A DNA stretch of 27,518 nt. Source: a virus. Every line of letters begins with the position of its first letter. The first letter of the stretch is position 1. Where the stretch lies: IMG/VR virus record IMGVR_UViG_3300035698_004246, positions 1-27,518 of that record; one strand, 5' to 3'. The position numbers and the translations under genes were made by a program. Of the stretch, positions 1,738 to 15,277 are shown in pieces. Below the pieces are notes generated by a model. The model saw nothing but the letters and a program-made list of their open reading frames with translations, ran no database searches and was not told where the DNA came from.

Positions 1738-2104
1738 TAACTTGTACCGCCCAGCCTTTAGCAGTCAAGGCCCATGTGTTAGTTGTACTTTTAATAAATA
1801 AACTGAAATGTAAGTTATCGCTACTATTAAACATGATACCTTCCTCTGGCATCCACAAATAATCTTTCACATCACTAAACGCTTGACTAATAAGTATCTG
1901 ACTAAATGCAGCACCACGCCCACTACTCAGCCATATAACAAAGTCCTCAACAGATAGATGCTTAGTTGCCATAACAACTCTCACCTCTGTTAGCTTAAAT
2001 ATTCTATTAAGCTTCATTGTCTCATCCATTGAGCCATCATCACCACCACTTAAATAAAAATCAAAAGAATCCCATAATTGAGGGTGCGTTGTTTCTGTTG
2101 ACAT
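1730..2104 (-). CDS. Fibre-region protein A', paralogue of the 3736-4107 product
   Basis: A 124-residue protein starting at ATG 2104, with AAGGAGT four bases upstream. I do not recognise the family, but it is clearly a paralogue of the product at 3736-4107. Both share an N-terminal F-F-Y pattern, an EVR segment followed by SVEDF, FSQ in the middle, a FSLF-KS segment and a C-terminal KGW motif at matching positions. It has no signal peptide or membrane segment and is predicted mostly beta. It lies between paralogue B' and the large fibre gene, whose start overlaps its stop by 8 bases. A small virion adhesin, fibre tip or fibre accessory protein is likely; this is inference from context. Confidence 0.75.
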   Translation of the reverse strand: MSTETTHPQLWDSFDFYLSGGDDGSMDETMKLNRIFKLTEVRVVMATKHLSVEDFVIWLSSGRGAAFSQILISQAFSDVKDYLWMPEEGIMFNSSDNLHFSLFIKSTTNTWALTAKGWAVQVNV

Positions 2105-2113
2105 AGTTACTCC

Positions 2114-2929
2114 TTAAGCCCAACCTGATCCAGTGTTTACACGGTATATCAATTTAATACTCATTGTGTTTACAGCTGCGTTACTTGAAATAATTGATAC
2201 ACTTATCTTTTCTCTAATATCAATCCACTTTGTCATTATAGGTAGAATCCCTTCTGATGAACTTGTTGCATTTTTATAAAGTGGTATCCTAGCAAGCTCA
2301 ATCTCACTACCAGTAACACCTTTCCATAATATTAATTCATAATCACCGTTATCAGAAATATCTTTTACTTCTATACCTTCAATTGTGAAGTCCTGAATAT
2401 TAGTACCATCATAAAGCGATCCTGTTACTATCTCAGAGCCATTAAAATCTTCTGCAATATAAGTTGTATTGTACAAATGAAAATAATCAGCTTCCATTGT
2501 GCCACTTTCGGAAAGTGTATATCTATCATTATAATTTGTAGTGCCTTCAATGACAATCGTTTGACCTGGGAACAGTCCATGCGCTGCACAATAAATTCTA
2601 ACAACATCACCACCAAGATCAAGTGCGCTATCAATATCAAGATTTTTAATATCACCTATTATCTTATTTTTAATACCGCCCCACCATGCAGTCCCACTTG
2701 ATGCAATTTGTGTAGGCTCTCTGTATTCAGGATAGCAGACTTGTTTCCCTGCACTTCTCTTGCCTAGTTCATATATTTCTCCACCAAGACTTTCCCTAGA
2801 TGAAGAATCATGATATTCACCAACAGCTTGACTAATATCTGTTGCATTATCCATAATATCAGTTAACAATGTTGAGATATCATCAGACAAATCTTTTTTT
2901 GGATATTCTTCTGTGTTTACATAAATCAT
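2114..2929 (-). CDS. Fibre-region protein B', paralogue of the 2929-3735 product
   Basis: A 271-residue protein. I chose ATG 2929, which forms a TAATG overlap with the upstream stop; a TTG at 2941 is possible but weaker. The core matches the preceding gene's product: a CYPxY segment, a W/FGG segment, then AHGLFPGQ followed by GTTNYN and a YTL strand, and a C-terminal RIPLYK...SEGI block. The HG-(F/L)-x-G-x-x-(V/I)-x-I-x-GTTNYN pattern recurs in many phage structural proteins and probably forms a small beta-sandwich. The N-terminal 60 residues have diverged strongly from the paralogue. A virion surface role, such as adhesin or fibre component, is inferred from location. Confidence 0.75.
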   Translation of the reverse strand: MIYVNTEEYPKKDLSDDISTLLTDIMDNATDISQAVGEYHDSSSRESLGGEIYELGKRSAGKQVCYPEYREPTQIASSGTAWWGGIKNKIIGDIKNLDIDSALDLGGDVVRIYCAAHGLFPGQTIVIEGTTNYNDRYTLSESGTMEADYFHLYNTTYIAEDFNGSEIVTGSLYDGTNIQDFTIEGIEVKDISDNGDYELILWKGVTGSEIELARIPLYKNATSSSEGILPIMTKWIDIREKISVSIISSNAAVNTMSIKLIYRVNTGSGWA

Positions 2930-3735
2930 TAATACGTCCAATCTGTTGCTGTATCTAAGCGGTATAATACTTTTACTTTAACAGTATCATTTGCAGCGTT
3001 GCTTGATAGTAAAGATAAATATAAGTTGTCAGTGATTAACCAATTAGATATGGCAGGAAATATTCCCTCTGATTGATTTGTTGCTGTTTTATAAAGAGGG
3101 ATTCTAGTACGCTCATAATAATTTGACATAATTCCAGAACCACGCCAAATTAATAATTCAAAATTACCTATTGCTGATATCTCTGAAATTTGAACACCTG
3201 CTATTCTATAACGACTAGGGAGTTGATCTTTGACCGTTTCTGTCCCTGTAAATTCTTCTGCTACATAGTCAGCTTCAATTTCAAAATAATCTACATTTAA
3301 TAAAGCTGTTTCTGGTAAAGTGTAAGAGCCATTATAATTAGTTGTTCCTGCGATTGTCACATATTGACCCGGAAAGAAACCATGTGCAGTACAATTTATT
3401 CTAACTAATCCACCACCAGAATTAACAGCATCATCATTATTTAATGTTTTTGACTTTCCTATTATTGTAATCTTTGTTCCACCAAACCAAACACTATTAC
3501 TAGATGTTACTATTACAGGTGGACTATATCTAGGATAGCAAAACATTGGTAATTTTTCTCTTGAGGTTGCCTTGTATAATGATCCAAATAAACTACCAAC
3601 ATCACCTTCATCAGCAATACTACCTATATCAGCTAATTGCGATACTGTAGAACCGTTCTCATAGTAGCTTGCAAACTCTAATAATTCGCTTGCATATGAA
3701 TCTGGTGAAGGTTCACAATTTAAAAATACACTCAT
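2929..3735 (-). CDS. Fibre-region protein B with phage beta-sandwich motif
   Basis: A 268-residue protein starting at ATG 3735, immediately after the stop of the preceding gene, so probably translationally coupled. Residues 118-140 carry the AHGFFPGQ...GTTNYNGSYTL motif seen in numerous phage structural proteins, followed by a YVAEEFTGT strand. The C-terminal half shares RIPLYK and SEGI blocks with the next gene's product. The N-terminal 65 residues are helical and acidic and may form the attachment or oligomerisation segment. It has no catalytic signature. It is the first of two tandem B-type paralogues. Function in host attachment is inference. Confidence 0.75.
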   Translation of the reverse strand: MSVFLNCEPSPDSYASELLEFASYYENGSTVSQLADIGSIADEGDVGSLFGSLYKATSREKLPMFCYPRYSPPVIVTSSNSVWFGGTKITIIGKSKTLNNDDAVNSGGGLVRINCTAHGFFPGQYVTIAGTTNYNGSYTLPETALLNVDYFEIEADYVAEEFTGTETVKDQLPSRYRIAGVQISEISAIGNFELLIWRGSGIMSNYYERTRIPLYKTATNQSEGIFPAISNWLITDNLYLSLLSSNAANDTVKVKVLYRLDTATDWTY

Positions 3736-4444: not shown

Positions 4445-6175
4445 CTATATTGCTTCCGCTGTTATATATCCCGGAGCGCTAACACCATGAATTTTTAAAT
4501 TGACTGTGAGTGTTCCTGTTGTTACAAAATGTCTCAATGATAGTTTAAAAATTGCAGTACTATTAAGATTAACAATACCACTTGCAGATATTGGGCCACC
4601 GTTTCTTACTTGCTCATAAATACCCTCACCATCACCACAGCCACATGAGCCATTTTCACCAACGACAACGTTTGTAGCACTGTTTCTAATAGAAGATGAA
4701 ACTATGGTATGTCCAGTGCTTCCATTAAATGAAGCGAATATTGCACCATGTGCAGCTAGTTTCCATTTACCAGCTGGAACATCCATTACAACAACCGCTG
4801 AATCATAATAAGTATCTGTTGCCGCAGCGGCTTGTATAGTTGCTGATGTTGATTCCTTTGTACTAACTAAATAACCTCTTTGTTTGCCATTGATATAAAC
4901 TTCTCCATTTTTTTCTGTTGCTGGCATACCAACTGCAAACATACCACTTGCTATCACTTTACGAATTTCATTAATAGTATATGCTCTTTTGTGATAGAAA
5001 AAATTATTCATCTCACCATCAAAAGGATTAGTTTTTGATGCATCATCATAGGCACCAATTGTCAGTTTAGTCCCTGCATTATTCCATCTTGCCGCCAATG
5101 TAGCATCAACTTTATAGGCAAGCAACATATCATCAACACCCATCATCATTAACTCATTACCCTGATCATACATACACCAAGGAATATGATAATTTCCATC
5201 GGTTAATAAAGCATCAATATTTACTTCACTCTCAAGATCAACAGTAGTTCCTGCATTATCAGTATGAACTTTAAAACCTAAATTTCCAGCAGCACTTCTA
5301 TAAAATTGAAAACTATCATTTGCATTACCAGCATCGTACTTAGCAATTAAATATTCTAATGTTCCAACACCCCTATCAGGCTTAATTACTACACCAGTAA
5401 AAAAACTTTCATTAACAGCATTAAATGTAGCTGAATTAAAATACATACAATCGTTACTACCATCTAAATCATTATATGCTGCTTGTCCTAAATGTGTTAC
5501 TGATGCCGTTATCGTTCCAACCTCAGTTAATGTTTCATTGCCTATGTCTCCGCTACCATCAAAGTCTGCTATTCCATTTATATGATTTACAAATAAATCT
5601 GTGCTATTAGGGAAATCACCAGCTGATGAATATTTACCAGTATTCAATTCGCCTATTCTGCCTTTATTAGTAACAACCCATGTGTTAGTAGCAATAGCCT
5701 TTACTGTTATAAAATCATAGTTATCAGCTAACAATGCAAGGTGATTATTATTTGTATCTGACAATTCACCATCAAGGGTATCAGAAGCATTTCCAGCTTT
5801 AATATAAATTACATTTGTCGCATCAATACGTTTAATTGTAATCTCTCTATCAAGATTGTTGCCTATTGTAGTTAAATCAGGCAGTGTAATAATCGTTCCT
5901 GCACCACTTGCATATATAAGACCGTATTTATCAGTATTAATAATTGTATAATTTGTTGTTACTGCTAACGATCTTAGTCCTATTGCTCCAAGAGCCTGTT
6001 TAAGTTGAGTTGTACTGCCAGAATTTGGTGTTTGACCACTAGCCTCTATCACACCAATTAATTCTTCCTGTACGCCATTTAAAAAATCTTCTTCAAGCGT
6101 AGTCCCGGGAGGGCCATCAGTAAACTGCCTTACACCAGAAGAATCATCATAATTTGTTCCACTTGTTCTATCCAT
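4445..6175 (-). CDS. Tail fibre protein with LamG-like domain
   Basis: A 576-residue fibre. I chose ATG 6175 because AAGGAGT lies six bases upstream; an earlier in-frame start at 6208 lies inside the preceding gene. The N-terminus (about 24-39, GTTLEEDFLNGVQEEL) matches a segment common at the start of phage tail fibres, followed by a beta-rich shaft (to about 185). Residues about 240-405 look like a concanavalin A/LamG-type sandwich: a YFNSATF strand, an IGAYDD strand and a GEMNNFFYHKRAYTINEI ending typical of that fold. After a GEVYINGKQRG linker (about 424), residues 430-576 form another beta domain. LamG-like domains often bind glycans, so a receptor-binding role is plausible. The C-terminal part contains a CGCG cluster. 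Confidence 0.8.
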   Translation of the reverse strand: MDRTSGTNYDDSSGVRQFTDGPPGTTLEEDFLNGVQEELIGVIEASGQTPNSGSTTQLKQALGAIGLRSLAVTTNYTIINTDKYGLIYASGAGTIITLPDLTTIGNNLDREITIKRIDATNVIYIKAGNASDTLDGELSDTNNNHLALLADNYDFITVKAIATNTWVVTNKGRIGELNTGKYSSAGDFPNSTDLFVNHINGIADFDGSGDIGNETLTEVGTITASVTHLGQAAYNDLDGSNDCMYFNSATFNAVNESFFTGVVIKPDRGVGTLEYLIAKYDAGNANDSFQFYRSAAGNLGFKVHTDNAGTTVDLESEVNIDALLTDGNYHIPWCMYDQGNELMMMGVDDMLLAYKVDATLAARWNNAGTKLTIGAYDDASKTNPFDGEMNNFFYHKRAYTINEIRKVIASGMFAVGMPATEKNGEVYINGKQRGYLVSTKESTSATIQAAAATDTYYDSAVVVMDVPAGKWKLAAHGAIFASFNGSTGHTIVSSSIRNSATNVVVGENGSCGCGDGEGIYEQVRNGGPISASGIVNLNSTAIFKLSLRHFVTTGTLTVNLKIHGVSAPGYITAEAI

Positions 6176-11131: not shown

Positions 11132-12595
11132 TTAATATGATAGTATTTTTACTATCCCTCCAGCAGGTAAAAATCCCGGGTGTATGACATTGTTTCTATC
11201 TATTATTTCTTGCTCTCTGCCTATGTCCTCATATTTATTGTATGCTAAAACAAAAGCTGGCATAATGGTAGCACCAATATCATAATTTTCTAGTGAAGGT
11301 AGATTCCTAGCAAGATAATTAATACTCTCAACAAATACCCTTCTAACCTCTTTTAAGGCCTGATAACTTTCATCATCAGCTAAAGAAATTCCAAACTCTC
11401 TAAAGCCTTCACTTGCTGCGTTATCACCTAATCTATCAAGTTGATCATCAATAGCATTAGTTATTAATTTTAATGTAGCACTTGCATCATCTTGGCTTTT
11501 ATAATCAATTCTTGACGCAACCTGACAAGCAAAGACTAGAGCCGTATTTTTAGTAAAATTAGTTATAAACTCTTGATGTACATAAAGTTGTGCGCTTTGT
11601 TTTGAGTTGATAGGTTCAAAATCAGCATATTCTTGAGAAGCCATATCAACAATATTACGTGTAATGGATTTTCCATATTCTGATGATATTGTCCCAGACT
11701 TAACAGTTGTGCTTTTAATGGCTCCACCTGAAAATTCTGTTTTACTACCGCTACATAAACCACTCACAGTATTATCAACAAAGTCACCTAACATTCCACC
11801 AACATTTTTAAAACCATTTAAAGAAGTCTTTAATGTTGCAGCAATCTGACAACCATCATTCATGATTGAATCAAAAGTTGATGCAGAGGCTTCATCTATA
11901 TAACTTAGACCGTTACTAATAACTGATCTAAGGCCACCACTAATAGCGTTCATTGCCTTGCGTTGTATAGCGTATAAAGATGTTACTGTTGTTGTGAGCT
12001 TAGTTAAATTACCAGCAACAGAATCTTTAATATTAAAACCCATTGCATCACTAAATATATTAGATGCCTTTTCACCTTCTTGATCAAGTAACTCTGTCTT
12101 ATCTGTTTTATCTTCTGGATATTTATTGTCACCAGCTATTACAAATGTCATTGTAAAGCGTGCAAGACCGCCCTGATTAAAACTTTCTACTATTCTAGCC
12201 TTTCCCTTTAGACTAACTTTTTTTTCACCTAAAAATGGGTGTATCAGTGTTCCAGCCCCTTCTTGATTAAGGGCATTTGTTAACTTGTCTCTTAATTTAA
12301 AATAATTAAAATCATTCTTAATATTTGCTATTACATACCCATTAATAGTAAACTCTTCCGCATCTTTACCTAAGTCCTCAGTATAAGGTTTTTCTCTGAA
12401 AGGGTACTGATGCACTATGTTACGTCTGCCTACCATAGTTTCAGAAGATGATACATAAAAATAAGCACCACGAAAAGATGCGGCCTTAACTTCGCCAAGA
12501 TCATTATTTGATTGACCAAAGAGATTATCACGCCATGATCTTTTTGTTGTTATAGAAGTTAAATCTTTATTTACAGCATCTAAAATGTTAGCCAT
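11132..12595 (-). CDS. Mu gpN-like tail/baseplate protein (DNA circularisation N family)
   Basis: A 487-residue protein starting at ATG 12595, overlapping the tape measure stop as TAATG. The N-terminal 160 residues carry the family core: SWRDNLFG, AASFRGAYFYV, GRRNIVHQYPFREKPYTEDLG and the GTLIHPFLGEKKV strand. In Mu, gene N lies between tape measure and gpP and is needed for tail assembly. The family name comes from an early DNA circularisation observation. The middle (about 180-330) is low-complexity helical; the C-terminal 150 residues are mostly helical. It probably links hub and tape measure. Confidence 0.9.
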   Translation of the reverse strand: MANILDAVNKDLTSITTKRSWRDNLFGQSNNDLGEVKAASFRGAYFYVSSSETMVGRRNIVHQYPFREKPYTEDLGKDAEEFTINGYVIANIKNDFNYFKLRDKLTNALNQEGAGTLIHPFLGEKKVSLKGKARIVESFNQGGLARFTMTFVIAGDNKYPEDKTDKTELLDQEGEKASNIFSDAMGFNIKDSVAGNLTKLTTTVTSLYAIQRKAMNAISGGLRSVISNGLSYIDEASASTFDSIMNDGCQIAATLKTSLNGFKNVGGMLGDFVDNTVSGLCSGSKTEFSGGAIKSTTVKSGTISSEYGKSITRNIVDMASQEYADFEPINSKQSAQLYVHQEFITNFTKNTALVFACQVASRIDYKSQDDASATLKLITNAIDDQLDRLGDNAASEGFREFGISLADDESYQALKEVRRVFVESINYLARNLPSLENYDIGATIMPAFVLAYNKYEDIGREQEIIDRNNVIHPGFLPAGGIVKILSY

Positions 12596-14367
12596 TAATA
12601 AACTCCCGGTATTGCAAACATATTACCTAAATAACTTTCTGCTATTACGTTAACTTTTGAACTATCATTAGCAGTCTTTTTGTCAATTCCAGACATCTTT
12701 AATTGTTCTGGTATCGATAGTTTAATATTTACATCACTAATGTTTTTACTTTCACCCATTACTGATATTGGATTCTGTTGTTGTTTTTGTAATATTGGAG
12801 ATGTATCAATATTAGAGCCTTTAAAAAATGACTTTGGTTTTTTATTTATATCCATATATTGTCTGTACAACGGCCCTTCAATACTAGATTCGGGTAATCT
12901 TGGGAGTTCAATTTTAGATAAATGACTTTCACCTATAAAATCTACATTAAACCATAGCGCTTTATCCAAAATACCTGCCATAGCTAGAAATGTCTTTAGC
13001 AGCGTAGGTGTCTCTTTCATGGTGAACATTGAATAGATACCCTTCCCAATGTCGTTTATAATTTCAAGTAAAATTCTGCCAGTTGTAATTATAGCTAATA
13101 CGGCTCCCGATACTGCAAGTACCTTAATTGTTAATGGTGTCATTGCTATAGAAAGGCCAGCCATAGCAACTGCAATTGTTCCTATGACAACACTTAGAGG
13201 CCCTAACGCAGCAGTTAGCCCAATTATAATAGATATTGCCTTTTTTGTTTCAGGATTAAGGCTTTCAAATATTTTATATAAACTTTGCAATTTATTTATT
13301 ATTTTAATAACAAAAGGGGCCAGCTCTCTACCTATTGCCGCTGCTAAGACTTGAACTGTTCCCCAAGCTCTACCAACTTGCGCTGAGAATCCTGTCATTT
13401 GTAGTTGTGCAGCTTTTGTTAGACTGATATTGTCTTTGTATACGGTGCCAATTATTTTCTGCATGTTAGCAATTTCTTTGCCACCTAACGCACTAATAGC
13501 TGTTAATGCTCTAATATTAGGTATCAACTCAGCTAATTGATCTGGTGTTTCTTTTGAAACCTTTGCTAGAGCTTTCATTGTTTTAACAAGACCAGCAATC
13601 CTTAGCTGGGTAGCTCCAACAGGAACACCCAAAGATTGCATCTTGTTTTTTAATTGCGCACTGGGAGATAATAATGAACTAAAGGCACCTCTTAATGCTG
13701 TTGTTGATTCTTCTGTGCTAAGACCACCTAAAGTTAGTTGAGAAACTGCTGAAAGTAATTCTCTGAAACCTACACCAGCATTTTTAGCAATAGGGGCAAG
13801 CTTACCAATATTGCTTGCAAGAGCTTCAACTGTTGTTTTACCAAATTTCTGAGCTGTAAAAAAAGCATCTGCAACATCAGTAGCGTTAGTTGTTTCTTTG
13901 CCATAGGCATTGACAATTGAAGATATACCATCAATAGCTATACCTAGTTTTGTAACACCACCAATTGCAAGTTTTTGCGCAACCTCGAATGTCTTTAATG
14001 AATCATCACTTAGACCTAAGGCTGAAATATTATCAAACATTGCTTTGTTAACATCTGCAATTGAAAACCCTAACTTAACAGCGTTGCCTTGAACTCCTTC
14101 CAACTGTTTGCCGTATTTAGATATTTCATTATCGCTTAAAAGAGTTTTAACAGTATTAAGACCTTTTTCAAGTTTACCAAATGCAGCAAGCGTTCCAGCA
14201 ACAGGAAGAGTTATACCAATAGTCATTTTCTGACCTATTGACTGCATACCACGACCAAAAGCTTTTACCTTCGCCCTTGTTAATGCAAGTTGTTTGCCTA
14301 CCTTTTTAAATGAAGCAGAAAAACGATCTATGAATGATAATTTAATACGTAATTGAGTATCAGCCAT
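12595..14367 (-). CDS. Tail tape measure protein (TP901 core type)
   Basis: A 590-residue protein starting at ATG 14367. An N-terminal basic coiled coil (about 15-45) leads into a TP901-type core (about 65-330) with LGIAIDGISSIVNAYGKET and GLSTEESTTALRGAFSSLLSPS segments typical of the family. Residues about 378-445 form several hydrophobic helices. It fixes tail length and passes into the cell on infection. At about 1.5 angstrom per residue the tail would be about 85-90 nm long, which is a short contractile tail. Its start overlaps the end of the frameshifted chaperone extension, as in other tail operons. Confidence 0.93.
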   Translation of the reverse strand: MADTQLRIKLSFIDRFSASFKKVGKQLALTRAKVKAFGRGMQSIGQKMTIGITLPVAGTLAAFGKLEKGLNTVKTLLSDNEISKYGKQLEGVQGNAVKLGFSIADVNKAMFDNISALGLSDDSLKTFEVAQKLAIGGVTKLGIAIDGISSIVNAYGKETTNATDVADAFFTAQKFGKTTVEALASNIGKLAPIAKNAGVGFRELLSAVSQLTLGGLSTEESTTALRGAFSSLLSPSAQLKNKMQSLGVPVGATQLRIAGLVKTMKALAKVSKETPDQLAELIPNIRALTAISALGGKEIANMQKIIGTVYKDNISLTKAAQLQMTGFSAQVGRAWGTVQVLAAAIGRELAPFVIKIINKLQSLYKIFESLNPETKKAISIIIGLTAALGPLSVVIGTIAVAMAGLSIAMTPLTIKVLAVSGAVLAIITTGRILLEIINDIGKGIYSMFTMKETPTLLKTFLAMAGILDKALWFNVDFIGESHLSKIELPRLPESSIEGPLYRQYMDINKKPKSFFKGSNIDTSPILQKQQQNPISVMGESKNISDVNIKLSIPEQLKMSGIDKKTANDSSKVNVIAESYLGNMFAIPGVY

Positions 14368-14772
14368 TTTGTTTCCTGTTTATAAAGTTTATACCGCTTG
14401 CCCAAAATAAAAGTTCATCTACTTCCATTTCCCACAATGACACTGGCTGAAAATGATAGAACTTAGCAAGATACCAAAGGACTTCTTTCCAATCCTTTGG
14501 TATCTTTACAAAAAATCCCCTATACCCCCTGCAATCTCAACTAAATCTGCAATATCCATATTCTCTTCAATTACATCTAGTGGAATATCAGTTAATGCAG
14601 CAACCAATGGAGCAACTTCACTAGGCTGTAATTGTCCACTCTCTCTACTGAATAAGTCGCTAGGTAATATTTTTAAATGCTTTGCTTTTAATCTTTTTAA
14701 AGTAACCTCTTTAACCTCTACGTTGATACCTTCCATTTCATAGTTGAATGGATACTTTAATTCAATTTTCAT
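14360..14772 (-). CDS. Tail assembly chaperone frameshift fusion (lambda G-GT type)
   Basis: This 137-residue product is made when ribosomes slip back one base at 14509-14515. The first 88 residues are the gp41-like protein, and 49 more come from the -1 frame, starting VKIPKDWKEV and ending RKQNG before a TGA at 14360-14362. Base 14509 is read twice. The extension has the W-L-F-W/F-x-x-E-L-x-F-W spacing seen in the second tail chaperone part (P2 GpE-type). In lambda the analogous GT protein recruits tube subunits to the tape measure. The -1 frame has no stop for 49 codons and ends inside the tape measure start, which supports the reading. Expression ratio is unknown. Confidence 0.82.
14468..14515 (-). 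promoter_or_regulatory. Programmed -1 frameshift signal: T TTT TTG heptamer plus hairpin
   Basis: The slippery heptamer at 14509-14515 sits in frame as GAT TTT TTG, followed at once by the TAA stop (14506-14508). A perfect 14-bp inverted repeat lies downstream: AAGATACCAAAGGA (14493-14506) pairs with TCCTTTGGTATCTT (14468-14481) around an 11-base loop. The base-pairing can start two bases after the heptamer, so the lower pairs probably open when the ribosome arrives. Both elements match the standard X XXY YYZ plus stem-loop design. Confidence 0.88.
14506..14772 (-). CDS. Mu gp41-like tail assembly chaperone (zero-frame product)
   Basis: An 88-residue protein starting at ATG 14772, with AAGGTAAGG upstream. 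It opens with a beta segment (KIELKYPFNYEMEGINVEV), followed by the KRLKAKHLKILP helix and a C-terminal acidic helical part ending IGDFL, as in the Mu gp41-type chaperone family. It lies between tube and tape measure, the expected position. Its stop codon directly follows the slippery heptamer. It chaperones the tape measure and tube subunits and is not expected in the finished virion. Confidence 0.88.
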   Translation of the reverse strand: MKIELKYPFNYEMEGINVEVKEVTLKRLKAKHLKILPSDLFSRESGQLQPSEVAPLVAALTDIPLDVIEENMDIADLVEIAGGIGDFL

Positions 14773-14779
14773 AAATACC

Positions 14780-14878
14780 TTACCTTCTTTTGAATAAATT
14801 AATTAGCTTTTCTTTAACCCATATAAAGGGTGACAATATTATAAATAGAATCATAATCTTTGGATCAAATCCTGACAT
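14780..14878 (-). CDS. 32-residue putative single-pass membrane peptide
   Basis: A short gene between tube and chaperone genes. ATG 14878 lies five bases after AAGGAG, and the TAA at 14780-14782 is followed by the chaperone ribosome site. The peptide starts MSGFDPKIMI, continues as a hydrophobic stretch (about residues 8-20, IMILFIILSPFIW) and ends in a basic Lys/Arg tail (KRR). That fits one membrane helix with a cytoplasmic basic end, or a short hydrophobic virion peptide. No family is recognised. The strong ribosome site and exact fit between two tail genes argue that it is real. Confidence 0.65.
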   Translation of the reverse strand: MSGFDPKIMILFIILSPFIWVKEKLINLFKRR

Positions 14879-14887
14879 ATTTACTCC

Positions 14888-15277
14888 TTATTGCACTGAC
14901 TCAACCCAATTAGGACCTTGGAATGTTATTGGTGTTTCACCTTCACCACCAGTTAATGAAAAATTTCTTAAACATGTCGCTTGTTGCATTGTGTATGCTT
15001 TTCCAGTTCCACCAGCTGATCTAAATATTACTGTTCCGTTTTCTCTTACAGAAGCAATATCACTCAAGCTAATATCATCACGATCCGTAACTGTTACCTC
15101 AAGTTGTGCCATAACTGGCTTATCAATATAACCATGTAACCCTGTATCACCATTTATTGCTTCAAGTTCAAAGTTTGGTTCACCTGAAACACCAATGCCA
15201 GAAGCTACCGCCCCAGCTTTATTTAAAAGGGTTACGCCATTTACTAAAACTTCAACTCTTCCTGTAATCCTAGCCAT
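14888..15277 (-). CDS. Tail tube protein (Mu gpM family)
   Basis: A 129-residue protein starting at ATG 15277 behind GGAGATAAA. Hallmarks are an N-terminal ARITGRVEVLVNGV strand, GEPNFELEAINGDTGLHGYIDKP, the KPVMAQLEVTVTDRDD strand and a C-terminal TFQGPNWVES ending. The length is typical of Mu-like tube proteins. It forms the hexameric-ring inner tube through which DNA passes. It follows the sheath gene by 9 bases. Confidence 0.93.
   Translation of the reverse strand: MARITGRVEVLVNGVTLLNKAGAVASGIGVSGEPNFELEAINGDTGLHGYIDKPVMAQLEVTVTDRDDISLSDIASVRENGTVIFRSAGGTGKAYTMQQATCLRNFSLTGGEGETPITFQGPNWVESVQ

Follow-up and report, generated by a model that had tools for sequence, protein, structure and literature searches.

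A putative programmed -1 frameshift in a Mu-type tail module, with a hairpin and an SD-like element that appear to be selected across an uncultured clade

The window, as the whole 27,518-nt stretch of DNA analyzed here is called, contains a tail module in which a short chaperone ORF sits between the genes for the tail tube and the tape measure, and the 3' end of that ORF reads GAT TTT TTG TAA. The question raised by this locus is whether one start gives rise to two chaperones by slippage on the run of six T, and whether the inverted repeat that follows takes part in it. The reading preferred here, given a probability of about 0.87, is a programmed -1 frameshift that would produce short and fused chaperones, with an SD-like element and a hairpin as its stimulators; confidence in the frameshift is high and in the stimulators good. 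As judged from sequence, this is a known kind of -1 programmed frameshift, with unusual candidate stimulators.

The tail module and its relatives

The tail feature under study lies on the minus strand throughout (Table 1). Genes are ordered sheath, tube, chaperone ORF, tape measure, DNA-circularisation-like protein, GpP/gp44-like hub and gp45-like protein, with two small ORFs and then a baseplate J-like protein 3' of the gp45-like gene. The tail gene order is that of Mu; the major capsid protein is instead of the Phage_capsid family. Between the tail tube and chaperone genes there is also a 32-residue ORF (MSGFDPKIMILFIILSPFIWVKEKLINLFKRR, 14780-14878, minus strand), preceded by an AAGGAG motif and containing a single hydrophobic segment, that could encode a small membrane protein; in some relatives, L002 for example, there is no space for this ORF.

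Table 1. Positions of the tail genes and of the proposed frameshift elements in the window
Feature	Position	Strand	Basis
Tail sheath, Mu-gpL-type, 502 aa	15287..16795	-	PHROG 165, 6.8e-144
Tail tube protein	14888..15277	-	Pfam Tail_tube 3.1e-12
Tail assembly chaperone ORF, zero frame, 88 aa, ends ...GIGDFL*	14506..14772	-	Pfam Phage_TAC_7 E 1.3e-7, above cutoff
SD-like AGGGGG, 9 nt 5' of heptamer	14525..14530	-	Position; function inferred
Second purine block GGGGA	14516-14520	-	
Slippery heptamer T TTT TTG	14509..14515	-	Sequence, X XXY YYZ phase
Zero-frame stop TAA, directly 3' of heptamer	14506..14508	-	
Hairpin 5' arm AAGATACCAAAGGATT, first 14 nt perfectly paired	14491..14506	-	
Hairpin loop GGAAAGA	14484..14490	-	
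Hairpin 3' arm AGTCCTTTGGTATCTT, last 14 nt perfectly paired	14468..14483	-	
-1 frame extension, GpE-like, 49 codons + TGA, VKIPKDWKEVLWYLAKFYHFQPVSLWEMEVDELLFWASGINFINRKQNG	14360..14509	-	Conserved across the 57 loci
Tape measure protein, 590 aa, start overlaps -1 frame end	12595..14367	-	Pfam PhageMin_Tail 3.5e-21

The Pfam model that identifies the zero-frame product as a chaperone is also matched by 44 of 55 members of the chaperone family. An AlphaFold model of the chaperone (pLDDT 88) showed moderate-score likeness to viral tail assembly chaperones, and a comparison of the fold with the PDB gave no match. Starting at 14509, the -1 frame stays open until a TGA at 14360-14362 and overlaps the tape-measure ATG at 14367. 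The sequence details given in the first-pass annotation were all borne out, among them that the zero-frame stop directly follows T TTT TTG and that the -1 frame runs for 49 codons and ends inside the tape measure start. The Pfam model Phage_P2_GpE (PF06528) scored the window's own C domain, encoded in this frame, at E 0.14, below the cutoff, and was matched by 25 of 51 homologous C domains (E <= 0.1; best 2e-8); seen beside these homologs, the window's own domain is too diverged to pass the Pfam cutoff alone.

The sheath protein was used as the query for relatives, and as the basis of the tree, because the chaperone protein found none in viral contigs and none in phages by tblastn, and a DNA-level search also found none. 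About 80 loci were gathered in this way, and profile searches of all their ORFs in three frames, with frame not a criterion for the C domain, located chaperone and C domain together at 57 distinct loci, one of them the window. In genome contigs, a single-sequence scan found nothing and a profile scan found one WWE3 MAG contig and one weak match. One relative of the tail module (L091, on the same contig as L041) comes from a genome bin assigned to candidate division WWE3, a hint that Patescibacteria may be among the hosts of the clade. Another locus (L010) carries a tandem pair of tail-sheath-like genes on a single contig, at 229-1758 and 1773-3158.

The hairpin and the SD-like element

The inverted repeat AAGATACCAAAGGA/TCCTTTGGTATCTT (14506-14493 and 14481-14468) stands alone in the window, where no other perfect inverted repeat reaches 11 bp; its 14 bp just after the heptamer are those noted in the first-pass annotation, and one U-G and one U-A pair extend the stem to 16 bp around a 7-nt loop. 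An 81-nt region containing the hairpin folds at -27.6 kcal/mol, for a z of -4.0 against dinucleotide shuffles, none of which (0 of 200) was as good. A hairpin in this place could nevertheless be a bystander, with T TTT TTG sufficing for a -1 frameshift like that of P2; it would then reflect a Pro..Trp-Gly protein motif or serve mRNA stability, RNase processing or tape-measure translation. P2 has the identical heptamer without a hairpin (PMC3091744), and an I-P..W-G-I motif alone favors CC/GG pairing.

The contribution of the protein was addressed by a synonymous-codon shuffle, in which the peptide is fixed and codons are redrawn from the locus's own usage. The stem signal survives this shuffle, with z of -5.1 to -6.8 for the window in three runs, contrary to what a protein motif alone would leave. 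Applied to 44 non-redundant sites, the test, which is a population measure (dnaX itself reaches just z -0.8) and leaves outside its model the constraint of a zero frame that in many relatives runs 15-50 nt past the heptamer (that of the window stops at once), gave a mean z of -1.62 against -0.22 in 1,100 background windows, with z below -2 at 34% of sites and in 6.5% of background windows. The associated p-value of 3e-10 is optimistic, as are the others given here, since sequences more than 85% identical were removed and the remaining related ones treated as independent. The signal is maximal directly 3' of the heptamer, which also speaks against a bystander; a control position near the tape-measure start deviates as well (Stouffer -5.4). 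Several relatives, for example L013, L044 and L084, have no stem signal by this test, so the stem is not essential everywhere, a point that suits a hairpin having no role in frameshifting; L018, L028 and L075 are among the relatives with strong stems.

Further evidence against that alternative came from an arm-swap test, in which the 5' half of one genome's site was joined to the 3' half of another's. Native sites folded at -14.8 and chimeric sites at -11.7 kcal/mol (z -8.0; leaving out the window gave -7.1, and matching the chimeras for GC gave -6.9), against a range of +0.4 to -3.5 at twelve control offsets, some of which therefore deviate too. The arms are thus co-adapted within genomes. 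The first-pass annotation had proposed a search for compensatory changes; position by position these are weak, because the register of the stem slips among relatives, and it is in the register-free arm-swap that co-adaptation is seen. Pairing in a fixed register was best at register 10 (relative to the Trp codon), at 0.557 against a column expectation of 0.519, and with so slight an excess a helix conserved base by base was rejected in favor of a drifting stem. Relatives thus retain a stem whose individual base pairs shift position, and the window has a register of its own.

A search of Rfam returned a chance miRNA match alone, below the cutoff, and no terminator-like site was found at the hairpin, again to the disadvantage of a role apart from frameshifting. 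Taken with the shuffle and arm-swap results, a hairpin without any part in the frameshift is rather improbable. The earlier remark that the hairpin is unusually strong for phage tail chaperones agrees with the z values above and with a report that structures at such frameshift sites are rare (PMC3091744).

The preferred reading, with both elements as stimulators, draws also on sequence upstream of the heptamer. Anti-SD pairing 6-20 nt 5' of the heptamer had a mean z of -1.05 (n=44) against +0.08 (n=880), with p 2e-10, and the enrichment fades further upstream. With an SD-like element enriched at this place, the site resembles the three-part signal of E. coli dnaX, in which the shift site is preceded at 10 nt by an internal SD and followed by a stem-loop (PMC5009743); the window's AGGGGG ends 9 nt before its heptamer, and an X XXY YYZ heptamer and downstream stem-loop are common to both. 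Differences are that dnaX is another gene with the heptamer A AAA AAG, and that its shift leads to an early stop and a shorter product, whereas that of the window would lead to a longer one. Within 54 nt the window's stem folds at -23.4 kcal/mol, compared to -19.7 for dnaX, and starts 2 nt after the heptamer rather than 5. Stems act at mRNA entry, 11-12 nt from the start of the P-site codon (PMC7282821). The base of the window's stem, 2 nt 3' of the heptamer with all pairs formed, moves to 5 nt with the lowest three pairs melted, and the 11-12 nt spacing is reached if these open. Together, the hairpin and the SD-like element appear to be selected across the uncultured clade.

The slip site and the direction of the shift

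An in-phase X XXY YYZ lies beside the C domain in 48 of the 57 loci, in 38 as T TTT TTN, and the base rate of such heptamers in large ORFs of the same loci is 0.6% of codons. Runs of six T at the site were in the phase for tandem slippage in 38 cases and off-phase in 2, compared to 62/66/23 for the three phases in large ORFs. At the same place other relatives have heptamers that are not homopolymers (C CCT TTC, G GGA AAC, A AAT TTC and G GGT TTA). No recognisable X XXY YYZ was found at the expected place in nine relatives that keep the -1 layout (L005, L011, L017, L043, L063, L066, L068, L069 and L081), and the stem of L005, at z -4.7, ranks among the strongest.

The same fusion could arise from mixed mRNAs if RNA polymerase slipped on the six T and added one U, and the run itself, as well as longer A runs of 9-10 nt in a few relatives, would be suited to this. 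Transcription, however, has no need of the 38 to 2 phase bias, and in other relatives the heptamer at this place consists of two short runs; on both grounds ribosomal slippage is favored and slippage by the polymerase is very improbable.

Although frame was not a criterion of the search, all 57 distinct loci have the C domain in the -1 frame, and in 53 of these no ATG, GTG or TTG precedes it within its ORF. The claim of the first-pass annotation that a -1 frameshift joins the tail chaperone to a GpE-like segment fits these counts, and loss of the -1 frame, which would have spoken against it, was seen at none of the 57 loci. With that layout recurring, a mean column identity of 46% in the C domain (51 sequences) and a start codon so rarely available, it is most improbable that no fusion is made, whether through independent translation of the second ORF or through sequencing error or gene decay, the last two being very unlikely.

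A genuine programmed -1 frameshift of the P2 kind is very likely. P2 E / E+E' resembles the window in its T TTT TTG heptamer, -1 shift, contractile tail and position preceding the tape measure gene, as well as in a TAC_7 short form and a GpE domain in the extension (PMC3091744), and differs in having no predicted hairpin (PMC3091744) and a z of -1.5 in the synonymous test, against -5.1 for the window. In lambda G / GT, which likewise precedes the tape measure gene, a -1 shift yields two chaperones from a single start (PMC5009743), but the heptamer is GGGAAAG and there is no downstream stem signal (z +0.6). Twelve named -1 phages of the same sheath family ranged from z -2.1 to +2.1, with no consistent stem by the synonymous test.

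Mu gp41 / FS-gp41 has in common with the window the tail gene order and the sheath family, and the Pfam chaperone model is named for E and 41. Mu, however, makes a -2 slip at CGG GGG CGA, which has been called exceptional (PMC4378225), and the window differs in this, its extension being in the -1 frame and its site a run of six T. Eight phages combine CGG GGG CGA with a -2/+1 C domain: Mu, D108, MuM16-2, martha, 1.028.O, Pmp9, B23 and Kp4866-3. In a sheath tree of 63 rows, 8 rows grouped near Mu are -2, and all 42 rows of the window's clade and 13 named phages are -1; direction of the frameshift needs two changes on this tree, which is unrooted, has several weak deep branches and need not be the tree of the chaperone. 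One -1 phage, YPCBV-1 (L104, T TTT TTG), is sister to the -2 phage B23 (L101, CGG GGG CGA) with SH-aLRT 100, reflecting either a change of direction or an exchange of the chaperone gene. It had been suggested at first pass that the mechanism switched inside a Mu-type tail, and as worded this is not supported: -1 is the common state in the sheath family, -2 is confined to phages around Mu, and no departure of the window from the Mu mode is visible. On the unrooted tree, the Mu lineage is the likelier innovator, having left the common -1 state. In KS10 (L112) the annotated chaperone shares sequence with a C-domain-like ORF at 5307-5540 that lies in the -2/+1 frame; a search for a slippery site there found none, and the KS10 paper reports no frameshift region (PMC2628397).

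A proposed role in tail assembly

In the mechanism proposed, one start would give two chaperones: termination at the TAA would yield the short, gpE-like form, and continued translation in the -1 frame a longer one fused to the GpE-like segment. Two tRNAs, for Phe on TTT and Leu on TTG, would slip back one base on T TTT TTG. The ribosome would be kept at the slippery codons by the SD-like block some 9 nt 5' of the heptamer and by the hairpin of 14-16 bp directly 3' of it, in the manner of E. coli dnaX. Tail assembly around the tape measure protein would then be set by how much of each chaperone form, short or fused, is made. In lambda the fused share is about 1 in 30. A more speculative extension, put forward only tentatively, is that a large uncultured clade of phages with Mu-type contractile tails keeps the full dnaX-like set of stimulators under selection while base pairs drift, and that the window, as the strongest case, may fuse a far larger share than lambda.

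If this were true, tail assembly in these phages would proceed with a different chaperone stoichiometry. The diverse natural sites, with their graded stems, are suited to asking how the chaperone ratio responds to the strength of the stem and the spacing of the SD-like element, and whether that ratio sets tail assembly. The comparison also makes the -2 slip of Mu a local exception within a -1 family, and the clade offers an example of a probable regulatory hairpin that persists as a trait although the register of its pairs shifts.
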